Under the pieces are notes generated by a model. That model did not search any database and had not been told where the DNA came from. It saw nothing but the letters and a program-made list of their open reading frames with translations. Shown here piece after piece: positions 29,841 to 43,138 of a stretch of DNA of 64,000 nt. Both the position numbers and the translations under genes were made by a program. Origin of the DNA: Candidatus Altimarinota bacterium (lineage in GTDB: Bacteria; Patescibacteriota; Gracilibacteria; BD1-5; UBA6164); contig JAQUZB010000007.1 in assembly GCA_028691535.1 (NCBI GenBank), positions 1-64,000 on the forward strand, given 5' to 3'. Positions within the stretch are counted from its first letter, which is position 1. Each line of letters begins with the position of its first letter.

Positions 29841-31666
29841 TGTTGTGGTATATCAAAATATTCTTTATATGTTTCTATAGTTCAATTTTTTAGAGTTATA
29901 CTCCAAGTCATATCGTATTTTCAAGATAACCATTCATATTTTTTTAAATCAGCAAAAGATAAAAATTCTTTTTCTAAATTTAGAGATCATTTATCATTTG
30001 ATCTTATTCAATTTGGTCAAATACTTTTCCGAGCTAAATTTACTACATTAGAACTTGTTTTCCGTTCTAGCCATTGTCATTTTGAATCATAACTACGAGT
30101 AAATGAAAAATCTGGTTCTGAAATAACATTAACAGGAACTGTTATATTTCTAATAGAATTTCTCCAATAATTTGGTTCAAAACTTCAATAAATTCAAACA
30201 TATGATTTTCAAGTTTTTATAAATGAAATTAATGATTGATAATATGGATCATTAAGTTTTGCTGAATAAGTTCAGTAATTATCTTTTTCCCAAAATAAAC
30301 CTCAATTAGATTGACCATTAAATATATCTATATAATCATTAGTTAATGCATTTTTTGTTTTTACAACTATTGTATTAGTTCCAGTATTATAATTTGCAGA
30401 TAGTATTTCAGGTTTTGCTGCATAATTATTAGGATTACATTGATTTACATCAACTGATGAAATAATTTCTGATGAATTATAAGGTGTAATAACAACTTTT
30501 TCAATATCACTTGATAATTGTGCTAAATAATTATTTGTAGAAGAATTTCTTGTTAAATTTATATATTTATTTGTAGCTCAATTTTTTGCTCAATATAGAT
30601 TAAAATCTCAACTTCAAGAAATCTCAATAGATGCTGGCCATCAATTTCAAGCACATGTAATATTTATATTTTTTATATTTGGAGTATTACTAATTGTATT
30701 ATTTTGAGATGAATTACTACTTTGAAAAGATGTATTATTATCATTAATAACTCAATTTAATGGATTCAATGCTTTATATTCACTATTATAAATTGATAAA
30801 ACTCAATCACTACATTTAAAATATACTTGAGGATTTGTTGCATCTCATTTAAATAAATAAAAATTACTAACCATATCTCAAGGTAAAGTCATATTACCAT
30901 TTGAATCTGGAATATATGATTTATCTGAATAATAAAATGTTGTTTTTAATCATAAATTATAATATGGAGTTAGATTGAAAGTACAACTTTTAACAGTATT
31001 ATTAATTATAGATTCTGATACACTTGTATCTATATTACAGAAATTATATGTGTTATATAATTTTACTCATGCTTCTGGATGAGGTGGTTCTGGTGAAAAT
31101 TGAGCTCACCAATAATATTTTCAATTCTTACATTCAAAATTTGCCCAAGTACAAATATTTCAAGATTTATAGTATAATGGTCAACTTTTTTCACAATCTC
31201 AAAAATCATTTCCTAAATTTTGATTAGAGTTATTTTGGTTAAGATTTATTGTTGTTGAAATTACTCAATTATCAGTTTTAGTTGAAGAAATATTTTCACA
31301 TTTTCATGTAGAACAAACTATTTTTTCTAAATCATCTTCAGAAATTAATTCTGCTTTTGTAATGTCATTTATTTCATATGATATATAATCTATTAGATTT
31401 CCTATCTCATTATTTGAAGAATATTTAGTTTTTATACTATTTAAATTTTTTAAAATATCATTTTTAAAAGAATTAAAATTTTCATTTCCTAATTGTGTTT
31501 TTCTATTTGAGATAGAGATTACCAAATTATTAATTTGGACTTTTGTATTAATACTAATTTTATCTCAATAAGGATTATTTAATCAGTAAACATTTAGTAA
31601 ATTTGAATATGAAATTCAAATTAGAATAAAAATATACAAAACAAATTTTAAAATTTTTCAATACAT
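29837..31666 (-). CDS. Large secreted or membrane-anchored surface protein, unknown
   Basis: 609 residues. An N-terminal hydrophobic segment (KILKFVLYIFILIGISYSN) serves as signal or anchor; the rest is extracytoplasmic and rich in Asn, Ser, Thr and Tyr. Cysteines are scattered (about ten), some in pairs such as VCSTGKCEN, so disulfides are possible. ITCAGNGWPASIEISGSGDF and the repeated aromatic strands suggest Ig-like beta domains, but no named domain could be assigned. Two CGG codons (30029-30031 and 30062-30064) fall in LEXKTSS and LAXKSI, relevant to the codon question. It stands alone, convergent with the HisRS-like gene; upstream lies tRNA-Arg on the same strand. Confidence 0.8.
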
Positions 31667-31793: not shown

Positions 31794-31871
31794 TGGTGCT
31801 CCCAGCAGGATTCGAACCCACGGCAGACCTAGGTTCGCGGCCTAGCGCTCTTCCAACTGAGCTATGGGAGC
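31794..31871 (-). tRNA. tRNA-Arg (anticodon GCG)
   Basis: 78 bases including an encoded CCA (31794-31796). Acceptor GCTCCCA/TGGGAGC with discriminator A, D stem GCTC/GAGC, anticodon stem CTAGG/CCTAG, loop CCGCGAA and T arm GTGGG-TTCGAAT-CCTGC with two wobble pairs. The anticodon is GCG, reading CGC and CGU. Unusual: position 33 is C instead of the near-invariant U, and the variable loop is 7 bases. Most bacteria use ACG (inosine-modified, also reading CGA); GCG cannot read CGA, which matches the absence of CGA codons in the window. Confidence 0.93.
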
Positions 31872-35842: not shown

Positions 35843-38722
35843 ATGTACCATTTAAAAATTAAAGTTAAAGCTTTTACATTAGTAGAATTAATAGTTGTAA
35901 TCACAATATTGGCAATATTATGAACAATAGCATTTATAAATTTGCAATGATATAGTACTGGTGCAAGAGATAGTAAAAGAATAAGTGATATAAATAATAT
36001 ACAAAAAAAGATAACAATAGAATTATCAAAATGAACATTATTGTCAAGTTTGATAAATACAGTAAAAACAAATACATGATTAACAATAGATGGTAATCCA
36101 GCAATATCAATCCAATGAACAGCAAATTTTCTTACACTAAAAGAGAATTGAGATAAGTTCAAAGATCCAGTAACAAAAGGAGATTATTTATTATCATATT
36201 CTATATGATGAACATGAACATGAGCATATAAATTCACACAAATATGAACAGTAAATGAAGAAAATAATCAAGCAGTAATAAAGTGAAATTACTATCAAAT
36301 GCAAGTATGAGATAGTCCAAGTATAACAGTAAACAATGAAGATTACTATGTAGTAGATGCATGAGTAGATTTACCATATATTGTTGATAATTCTTGAGAT
36401 TCAAGTAGTAATTCATCTAGTTGATGACCTGTTGTAACTTATGAATGTAATTGACTAATATGAAGCGCGAATCCAGATCAACGGTGAGATAATTATTGAT
36501 ACCAAGATTTTGATTTATGTACTAATACAATAATATTAAGTTCATTGATTAATATACCACTTTCAAGTAATCTAACAAATAATCCATGAGCTCGTGAAGT
36601 TTATGCATTTGTACTTGAACAATGAAAAACATATACATTAGAATCATTATGAAATGATACTGATAGTGATACTGCATTTTTTTTATATGATAATTTATGA
36701 AATAAATTAGCAATTAATGATGATTTAAGCAATGATATTTATAGATCTAGTATTACATATGTAGCACCTTATACATGATATTATTATTTATGAGTAATGT
36801 GATATGATGATTGATGAACTTATGCTGATTATACATTAAGTATAGATGATTGAAATAGTACTAATCCAGTTAATTGAATGTGTTGAAGTGATAATTGAAA
36901 ATTATTATTAGTTACACCAACAAACCTATGTAGTAAATGAACTTCATCAATAGTTACTGATCAGTGAGAATGATTAAATTATACATGGACTTGTGATTGA
37001 ATAAACTGAGGTGGGAATACTTCATGCAGTGCAATACATAAAGTAGCTATTGCATGTAATTATCAACAAGCTGATATTGATGCGTTAAATATTTCATGAT
37101 GATATGAAAATTTTAGTGTAACTGATGAAAATTATAATACTCTTACAACATTTCCACTTACAAAGGATCAATGGTGTAGTGTTACTAATTTGACTTGGAT
37201 TTGATGAGCAAATGTTACTCCAGAAATATTTACTTTAAATTTATTAACATATCTAAATTTATATAATAATTGAATTACAACTCTACCACCTGAAGTATGA
37301 AATCTAACTAGTTTAACTAATTTAGATTTATCTACTAATTCACTTACAAGTTTACCAGATGAAATAGGTAATTTGGCATATTTAGATTTTTTATGAATAT
37401 GATCAAATCAACTTACAAGTTTTCCAACAATAATATGAAATTTAAGTAATTTAACTAGTTTACAATTGTATAATAATAAAATTTCAAGTGTTACTCATGA
37501 AATATGAAATTTAACTAATCTAGTTAGCTTAGGTTTGGGTACAAATTTACTTAATGATTTACCATCAGAATTATGGAATTTAAATAAGTTAACTTATTTA
37601 TCTCTAAGTTCAAATCAGATTTCAAGTATACCGTCACAAATATGAAATTTAACTAATTTAACTAATTTAGATTTATCAACAAATCAAATTACTACTTTAC
37701 CTTCAGAATTTTCTAATTTGGTAAATTTGAAAACTTTATATTATGATAATAATCAAGTTGTAACGATACCACAAAGTATATTTAGTTTATCAAGTTTAGA
37801 AACTTTATATATGAGAAGTAATTTAATTACAACTCTACCACCGGATATATGAAATTTAACTGGTTTAACTACTCTTGATTTTGAAGCCAATAAAATAACA
37901 GGTATACCAGCAGAATTTTGAAATTTAATTAATCTATCATATCTACGTATTAGAAATAATAAAATTACAAGTATAGCACCAGAATTTTCTAATTTATCTA
38001 GTTTAACATCATTGTATATAGAGAGTAATCTTCTTACAACATTACCAGTAGAGTTTTGAAATTTAACTAGTTTAATTAGTTTATTTTTAGATTCTAATCC
38101 TTTAACAAGTATTCCATCTCAATTTTGAAATCTATCTAGTTTAAGAACTTTATATCTACGGAATAATCAATTAACAGATTTACCACTAGAGTTTTGAAAT
38201 TTAACTAGTTTAACTACACTTCATTTTTGAGCTAATCCAGCCACTAGTGTTCCAGATGCTATATTTAATCTTCCGAATTTAAAATATTTATGACTTTTAG
38301 ATATTCATAATATTGCAAGTATACAACCATCAATTTCAAATTTGACTAATTTAATTAGTTTAGATTTCCGGCGGGCAAGTAGTTTAACTACTGTTCCTCC
38401 TGAAATATGAAATTTACCAAATTTAGAATATTTATATTTTGGTAATAGTGCTTTAACAGTTTTACCATCAGAGGTGTGAAATTTATCTAAATTAAAAACA
38501 TTGAGAGCTTATAATACTCATTTAACAACTCTACCTTGAGAGTTAACTAATTTAACTAGTTTAACTAATTTTAGTTTAAGTGGTAATTCATGATTATGAC
38601 AACTTAATAAAGATTTTTGAATTAGCTCACCAAATAGTTCACAAGTTAATATTCCGACTACATGACAAACAATGACAGTTTGATGAAATTGAACTAACGT
38701 AGTTGTTACTGTAACCCCATAA
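35843..38722 (+). CDS. Giant pilin-like surface protein: type IV prepilin N-terminus, PPC domain and about 20 leucine-rich repeats
   Basis: 959 residues.
Residues 1-35: prepilin leader and transmembrane helix with cleavage site KA/FTLVELIVVITILAIL (Glu at +5), the substrate of the PilD encoded at 8.3 kb.
Residues 35-190: pilin-like head.
Residues ~210-335: a bacterial pre-peptidase C-terminal (PPC)-like beta domain, from LINIPLSSNLTNNPGAREVY to YADYTLSIDDG.
Residues ~340-400: a disulfide module with CSKGTSSIVT and WTCDGINGGGNTSCSA.
Residues ~455-945: about twenty 23-residue LRRs with consensus NLTSLTxLxLxxNxLTxLPxEI and GN encoded TGA AAT.
The LRRs are of the bacterial/SHOC2-like type used for protein binding. 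Four CGG codons are present. A pilus or pseudopilus adhesin for host contact is inference. Confidence 0.92.
37200..38660 (+). repeat. Leucine-rich repeat array (about 20 x 69 bases)
   Basis: Coding repeats with recurring AATTTAACTAGTTTAAC and ATATGAAATTTAAC blocks. Repeats are diverged at codon level, so they are not a recent expansion, except that repeats 5-7 and 12-15 are closest. Confidence 0.9.
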
Positions 38723-42478: not shown

Positions 42479-43138
42479 ATGCAAATAATAAAAAGTTTTA
42501 GAAAAACTCTTTCTATGAAATTTGATAGTTTTTGAACATTGATTGTAAAAGCTCCTTATTTTACAAGCGATAGAACTATACATAATTTTATAGAAAAAAA
42601 TAAACTTTGGATTGATAAAACAAGAAATAATTTGCTTGAAAAAATAAAAGTTTTTGATTTTTGAGAGAAGTTTTTTTATCTTTGAAATGAGTATGTTTTA
42701 CTTAGTGATTTGACTAGTGAAAAAATGAAATTTGATTGAATCAATTTTTATCTATCAAATAAACATAAAAACAAAATAAAAGAAAAACTTTTAGAGTTTT
42801 ATAAAATGGAGTCTATTCTTTATATAAAAACTAAGGTATTAGAAATAGCATCAGTAAATAACTTAAATTATAATTCTGTAAAAATAACAAGTGCAAAAAC
42901 TAGGTGGGGAAGTTGTACTAGTAAGAAAAATCTAAATTTTAGTTTTAGGTTAATTATGGCTCCTAAATCTAGTATAGATTATGTAATAGTTCATGAATTA
43001 GCTCATTTACTTGAAATGAATCATAGTCCAAAATTTCGGCACAATGTATCTACTTTTTTTGATAGATTAGATTTATGAAATTATAAAGATCATCAAAAAT
43101 GGTTAAAAATAAATTGAAATAAACTTATGTATGTATAA
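42479..43138 (+). CDS. YgjP-type metallopeptidase (DUF45/SprT-like)
   Basis: 219 residues. Zinc site HELAHLLEMNHSPKF (HEXXH plus third His). TRWGSCTSKKNLNFSFRLIM upstream is the family RWGSC...LNxxWRL block. After HSPKF the family nearly always has Trp, as in HSxxFW; here the codon is CGG (43037-43039), read as Arg in table 25. C-terminal KDHQKWLKINGNKLM is the expected end. Three bases after yigZ, in one transcript with mazG and yigZ. Proteolytic substrates unknown. Confidence 0.93.

Follow-up and report, generated by a model that had tools for sequence, protein, structure and literature searches.

Does CGG, which stands for arginine in nearly all life, stand for tryptophan in the uncultured bacterium of the Candidatus Gracilibacteria type studied here? 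The question is raised by a gene for a YgjP-like metallopeptidase, located at 42479–43138 on the forward strand of the window, i.e. of the 64,000 nt stretch analysed here, which represents contig C4 of an assembly of 1,264,073 bases in 20 contigs. Inspection of this sequence had suggested that a rare CGG codon occupies a position of YgjP that normally is Trp, and on this ground the original prediction proposed a second reassigned codon, CGG to Trp, with a hint that CGA might share the change.

A CGG codon at a conserved tryptophan of YgjP

Read with TGA as Gly, the gene codes for 219 aa and matches the Pfam family PF01863 with an E-value of 8.1e-48 and 163.6 bits, compared to a cut-off of 26 bits. 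The match covers positions 1–205 of the 207 positions of the domain, and this full length rules out a broken or wrongly framed gene. The CGG codon in question (43037–43039, forward strand) is in frame under code 25 and specifies residue 187. YgjP matches exist in 108 out of 145 genomes of the class, and the column was read in the 30 best-scoring of these 108, that is, in our genome and 29 others. It holds TGG in 27 and CGG in three, our own and the genomes G072 and G119, both of which belong to the same family and to other genera. Four further named Gracilibacteria loci all have TGG. Thus, outside our own locus, TGG is found in 31 of 33 cases and CGG in the remaining two, and the claimed Trp position is borne out. 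The closest named relatives of the protein are all labelled 'Candidatus Gracilibacteria bacterium' (80, 63, 58 and 43% identity); the one with 80% identity has TGG at this column and hence is a single T to C change apart from our CGG. A search for a solved structure of YgjP found none.

The seven CGG sites listed in the original prediction are exactly all in-frame CGG codons of the selected ORFs of the window, among which, as also claimed there, no in-frame CGA was found. Besides the YgjP site, two are located on the reverse strand in a surface-protein gene (30062–30064 and 30029–30031) and four on the forward strand in a pilin/LRR gene (35843–38722). The two surface-protein sites and the first site of the pilin/LRR gene (36482–36484) have no aligned column in the genomes G170 and G160 or in the named loci. 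It had been argued that the LRR sites fit Arg as well as or better than Trp. This objection falls away in the alignment with G160, a genome of the same genus: the CGG pair at 38369–38374, preceded by LDF, is aligned with LDF-CGG-TGG, and the single codon at 38159–38161, in the context LYL-CGG-NNQL, with LYL-CGG-NNNL.

Genome-wide meaning of CGG

Our sample covers 858,291 bases of the assembly (68%). With a minimum length of 80 codons it yields 794 ORFs, together 260,882 codons, with some of the ORFs surely being spurious. The genome has a G+C content of only 0.231, and the sample contains 70 CGG codons (2.7 per 10,000), next to 20 CGA, 1429 TGG and 5976 AGA. These ORFs were aligned to 1.34 Mb of the relative G170, taken as 28_42_T64 (CP042461.1), and to 400 kb of G160 (contig C3 of which was taken as JAQTWV010000001.1) together with three named loci of 20 kb each. 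Against G170, 25 of our CGG codons fall into well-aligned columns, where the relative has Trp in 15, CGG in four, Tyr and Met in two each, and Phe and Arg in one each. Another 25 columns come from G160 and the named loci, three of them being the YgjP site in the latter; here Trp is found 16 times, CGG eight times, Phe once and Arg not at all. Counted as distinct sites over G170 and G160, there are 37 (21 Trp, ten CGG, two Met, two Phe, one Tyr, one Arg), and 33 of the 70 CGG codons have no aligned column. Hence 21 of the 27 unambiguous columns face Trp and a single one faces Arg, the latter in a galU-like ORF (L044:8647-9513) where the relative uses AGG. The four other Arg codons face Trp in only 3 of 4309 columns (Fisher p about 1e-48 versus CGG); for AGA alone it is 3 of 3949. 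The CGG codons found at Trp columns are spread over many unrelated genes. TGG itself faces Trp in 711 of 783–788 columns, so that CGG is somewhat less strictly Trp than the standard codon (p 0.037).

The same result was obtained by a codon-to-residue inference of the kind that the original prediction had called for, which we carried out as a leave-one-codon-out likelihood on the 68% sample. For CGG it favours Trp, with a lead of 47.8 log10 units on the next best residue, Phe. Among 62 codons, the only departures from table 25 are ATG, TGG, CGG and CGA; the first two cannot be judged in this way because they are the single codons of their amino acids, and CGA is represented by one column. TGA came out as Gly in every comparison. 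The CGG codons of G160 likewise yield Trp (seven columns against each partner), and those of G170 do so on a thin basis of five columns (two Trp and one each of Ile, Tyr and Arg), with Trp leading by 2.9 log10 units.

Three of the CGG sites could be compared with solved-structure alignments. In dihydrofolate reductase (DHFR) and in a potassium channel the column is Trp in five out of five alignments shown, all from outside the clade. For FtsW/RodA, the five shown have Leu, Leu, Ile, Met and Met, neither Trp nor Arg; within the clade this same column is Trp in G170 and CGG in G160. An alignment of CGG to Arg columns throughout the genome, which had been named as the finding that would speak against a reassignment, is thus not what we see, and the proposed change is supported far beyond YgjP. 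Judged from these columns, CGG very probably serves as a second Trp codon beside TGA for Gly, with Trp as its main meaning, both here and in the close relatives.

A tRNA with CCG anticodon

A decoding change of this kind calls for a suitable tRNA. Our genome has tRNA-Arg with the anticodons UCU, CCU and GCG, tRNA-Trp with CCA, and one tRNA with CCG, located on the reverse strand of contig C17 (160750–160826; L031:10750-10826). No tRNA with UCG or ACG was found in a search of the whole genome with the Rfam model RF00005, and the tRNA-Arg(UCG) that would have argued for an unchanged code is thus missing from the tRNAs detected. The tRNA(CCG) has the pair A1:U72 and the discriminator G73. Among the 30 tRNAs of our genome this combination is found only in tRNA(CCG) and tRNA-Trp, and the same holds for the 35 of G170; all three of our tRNA-Arg have G1 and A73. 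According to a review (PMC9976931), determinants of Trp identity in bacteria are G73, A1-U72, a part of the acceptor stem, A9, C34, C35 and A36, and those of Arg include A/G73, A20, C35 and U/G36. The tRNA(CCG) possesses C34, C35, A9, G73 and A1:U72, with G36 in place of A36. Its position 20, as counted, is an A, as in the three tRNA-Arg and in no other of our tRNAs with a GG-containing D-loop, though this numbering is uncertain because the D-loop has C or A at the place of G18. With C35, G36, G73 and this A, it also carries the bacterial Arg identity set. The search for a CCG tRNA with Trp identity elements, as proposed in the original prediction, thus gives a mixed picture: such a tRNA exists and its A1:U72 and G73 are of the Trp type, and the A at counted position 20 is of the Arg type. 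Taken together they favour Trp without proving it, and the case is carried by the columns. That tRNA(CCG) might be a plain tRNA-Arg is contradicted by A1:U72 and G73, a rejection which is weaker in view of the possible A20. Shulgina and Eddy refrain from assigning tRNAs with A at a counted position 20 of uncertain numbering (PMC8629427).

Pairwise similarities of tRNAs within genomes did not reveal a clear parent of tRNA(CCG), the scores for Met, Trp and Arg tRNAs being similar. Its build is unusual, lacking G18G19 in the D-loop, mostly having G55 in the T-loop and allowing a sixth pair in the anticodon stem. Among the 30 tRNAs of our genome and the 35 of G170, the two presumed readers of the recoded codons, tRNA(CCG) for Trp and tRNA(UCA) for Gly (L030:1501-1579 in our genome), are the sole ones without GG in the D-loop. 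Both are able to form the sixth anticodon-stem pair, at a place where some other tRNAs pair as well. The acceptor end of our tRNA(UCA) is composed of G1:C72, C2:G71, G3:C70 and U73.

Two further observations concern the tRNA set. The contigs C4 and C10 (L021, L022) both carry the same tRNA-Trp(CCA) gene, each time no more than about 30 bases from the contig end, so the assembly seems to be broken there. Moreover, no tRNA-Gln was found in our genome with RF00005, against one or two in G160 and G170; this absence probably is a gap in the assembly.

The genome contains two synthetase genes of the family PF00579, presumably one for TyrRS and a single one for TrpRS. The latter would recognise A1:U72 and G73, common to tRNA(CCG) and tRNA-Trp(CCA), and would thereby place Trp at CGG. 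This route, charging of tRNA(CCG) by TrpRS, appears likely to us, if somewhat less so than the new meaning of the codon itself. CGU and CGC would stay Arg via tRNA-Arg(GCG), and AGA and AGG via tRNA-Arg(UCU) and (CCU). At about 23% G+C and with CGG so rare, few codons would have been altered in meaning, which would make the change tolerable. From then on, a one-step T to C mutation could turn TGG into CGG and leave the protein unchanged.

Spread of tRNA(CCG) among relatives

With a covariance model of our tRNA(CCG) and an E-value of up to 1e-4, matches were found in 36 out of 48 genomes of the family. Complete matches of over 71 bits exist in 32 of them, all with CCG anticodon, A1:U72 and G73; of the other four, the one in G162 is truncated where its contig stops and three are other tRNAs. 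In the sister genus g2, tRNA(CCG) is absent from eight out of eight genomes, three of which are less than 90% complete. Here, a tRNA-Arg(UCG) adjoins tRNA-Arg(GCG) in genome G156, and pattern matching points to the same arrangement in G014. In a search of 192 genomes of the class, nothing outside the family came near the family scores except a CCG tRNA in G012 (61 bits, A1:U72, G73, a clear A20). The 13 loci that were read outside the family comprise ten tRNA-Trp(CCA), two tRNA-His and this CCG tRNA.

In G169 and G168 (L143:128-203 and L145:108-183), tRNA-Arg(GCG) is adjoined by a tRNA of unusual build that has A73 and the anticodon UCG. As G169 possesses tRNA(CCG) as well, both could compete for CGG there.

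CGA and the tRNA-Arg(GCG) with C33

The 20 CGA codons of our sample make up too small a part of its 260,882 codons for a judgement: only one has an aligned column (Lys), and one ORF with two CGA codons overlies a tRNA cluster. G170 uses CGA 393 times (9.7 per 10,000). Over 69 columns it faces Arg 44 times and Lys ten times, Arg leading over Lys by 39.4 log10 units, and from these columns CGA in G170 reads as Arg. The hint that CGA might have become Trp together with CGG is therefore not supported, and on the evidence of G170 we reject a shared change.

How CGA is read in G170 is less obvious. ARAGORN, applied to 1.34 of 1.343 Mb, predicted 35 tRNAs, none of which has the anticodon UCG or ACG. 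The Rfam search, which covered the whole genome, yielded 34. The Rfam search missed the tRNA(CCG) of G170, thus an unusual tRNA could escape both searches.

Position 33 is U in tRNAs almost universally. The tRNA-Arg(GCG) of our genome, predicted by ARAGORN on the reverse strand of the window (31794–31871) and reading CGU/CGC, has A20 and A73, and its position 33 is C. It is the sole tRNA with C33 in our genome and in G170. By pattern, 23 of the 48 family genomes have C33 in this tRNA and 12 have U33. Of the former, 20 possess a tRNA(CCG), and of the latter, three (Fisher p 0.0005), a weak association since the p-value is uncorrected for kinship. One may speculate that the loss of the UCG tRNA freed CGG and that C33 rescued CGA, such that a single tRNA-Arg(GCG) with C33 would read CGU, CGC and CGA as Arg and tRNA(CCG) would read CGG as Trp. 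We regard this scenario as rather improbable.

Comparison with known codes

Shulgina and Eddy (2021) predicted CGA and CGG to be Trp in Absconditabacteria, and one sentence of their paper adds that some Gracilibacteria, too, may translate CGG as Trp, with others keeping Arg (PMC8629427). Our genome resembles this predicted Gracilibacteria code in TGA as Gly, low G+C, rare CGG codons and Trp as the meaning obtained for CGG, as well as in a CGG-decoding tRNA with G73, which is present here and in 32 out of 32 complete copies. Its G+C of 0.231 lies below the 0.26–0.38 given there for reassigned clades. We go beyond that prediction in following tRNA(CCG) over 48 family genomes, including a genus that does without it. 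With Absconditabacteria, as described in the same source, our genome shares CGG as Trp, the background of TGA as Gly, and a tRNA(CCG); it differs in that CGA is almost unused here and Arg in G170, with no tRNA(UCG) found in either. Another parallel from PMC8629427 is given by Anaerococcus and a clade of Bacilli of the order RFN20, where CGG alone has changed and a tRNA(CCG) has Trp features. However, CGA is read there by a tRNA-Arg(ICG), whereas the search of our genome revealed no ACG tRNA, CGU/CGC being read by tRNA-Arg(GCG). The case of Absconditabacterales is repeated in PMC13092985, according to which their tRNA(CCG) have anticodon stems of 5 bp. The available sections of the paper on 28_42_T64 (PMC6851277) contain no mention of CGG, and those of a study that applied Codetta to the group (PMC11393006) report UGA only. 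Among the open-access papers searched, only PMC8629427 and PMC13092985 were found to deal with a change of CGG to Trp in this clade.

Alternative explanations

Could CGG still be Arg, with the YgjP site a tolerated substitution or a chance event? The galU-like column aligned with AGG would fit, as would C35, G36 and the possible A20 of tRNA(CCG). But CGG faces Trp in 21 out of the 27 unambiguous columns and Arg in one, and the other four Arg codons face Trp in only 3 of 4309; this is not how an Arg codon behaves, and three members of the family carry CGG at the Trp column of YgjP. On these counts we reject it as extremely improbable. A more serious alternative is ambiguous decoding, in which TrpRS and ArgRS both charge tRNA(CCG) and CGG yields a mixture, for which reason it would be kept rare. 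Such a situation agrees with the mixed identity elements, with the low frequency of CGG, and with columns slightly less strictly Trp than those of TGG. Nevertheless, CGG occurs at the invariant Trp sites of DHFR and the potassium channel, where much Arg should be harmful, and we consider substantial ambiguity unlikely, though some misincorporation of Arg may occur.

C-to-U editing of mRNA, which occurs in plant organelles, could turn CGG into UGG and leave the code as it is; the two codons are one C/T change apart and swap between species. Editing should, however, touch other codons that contain C, yet all other codons that could be judged agree with table 25, and a tRNA(CCG) that is conserved and shows Trp features offers the simpler route. 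Thus, editing has hardly any probability in our view, and reassignment of CGG to Trp remains the preferred reading.

Meaning of the finding

Few changes of sense codons are found in bacteria. For some Gracilibacteria, CGG to Trp is already predicted, in a brief remark and on the basis of rare codons (PMC8629427); it is newly and firmly documented here, by the exchange of CGG and TGG among related species as well as by a tRNA that is conserved. A direct decoding question is posed by 28_42_T64, where CGA means Arg although no tRNA for this codon was detected. Since the sister genus is devoid of tRNA(CCG), the family lends itself to tracing how the new meaning was gained or lost. In practical terms, translations of these genomes with NCBI table 25 would have a wrong Arg at every CGG.
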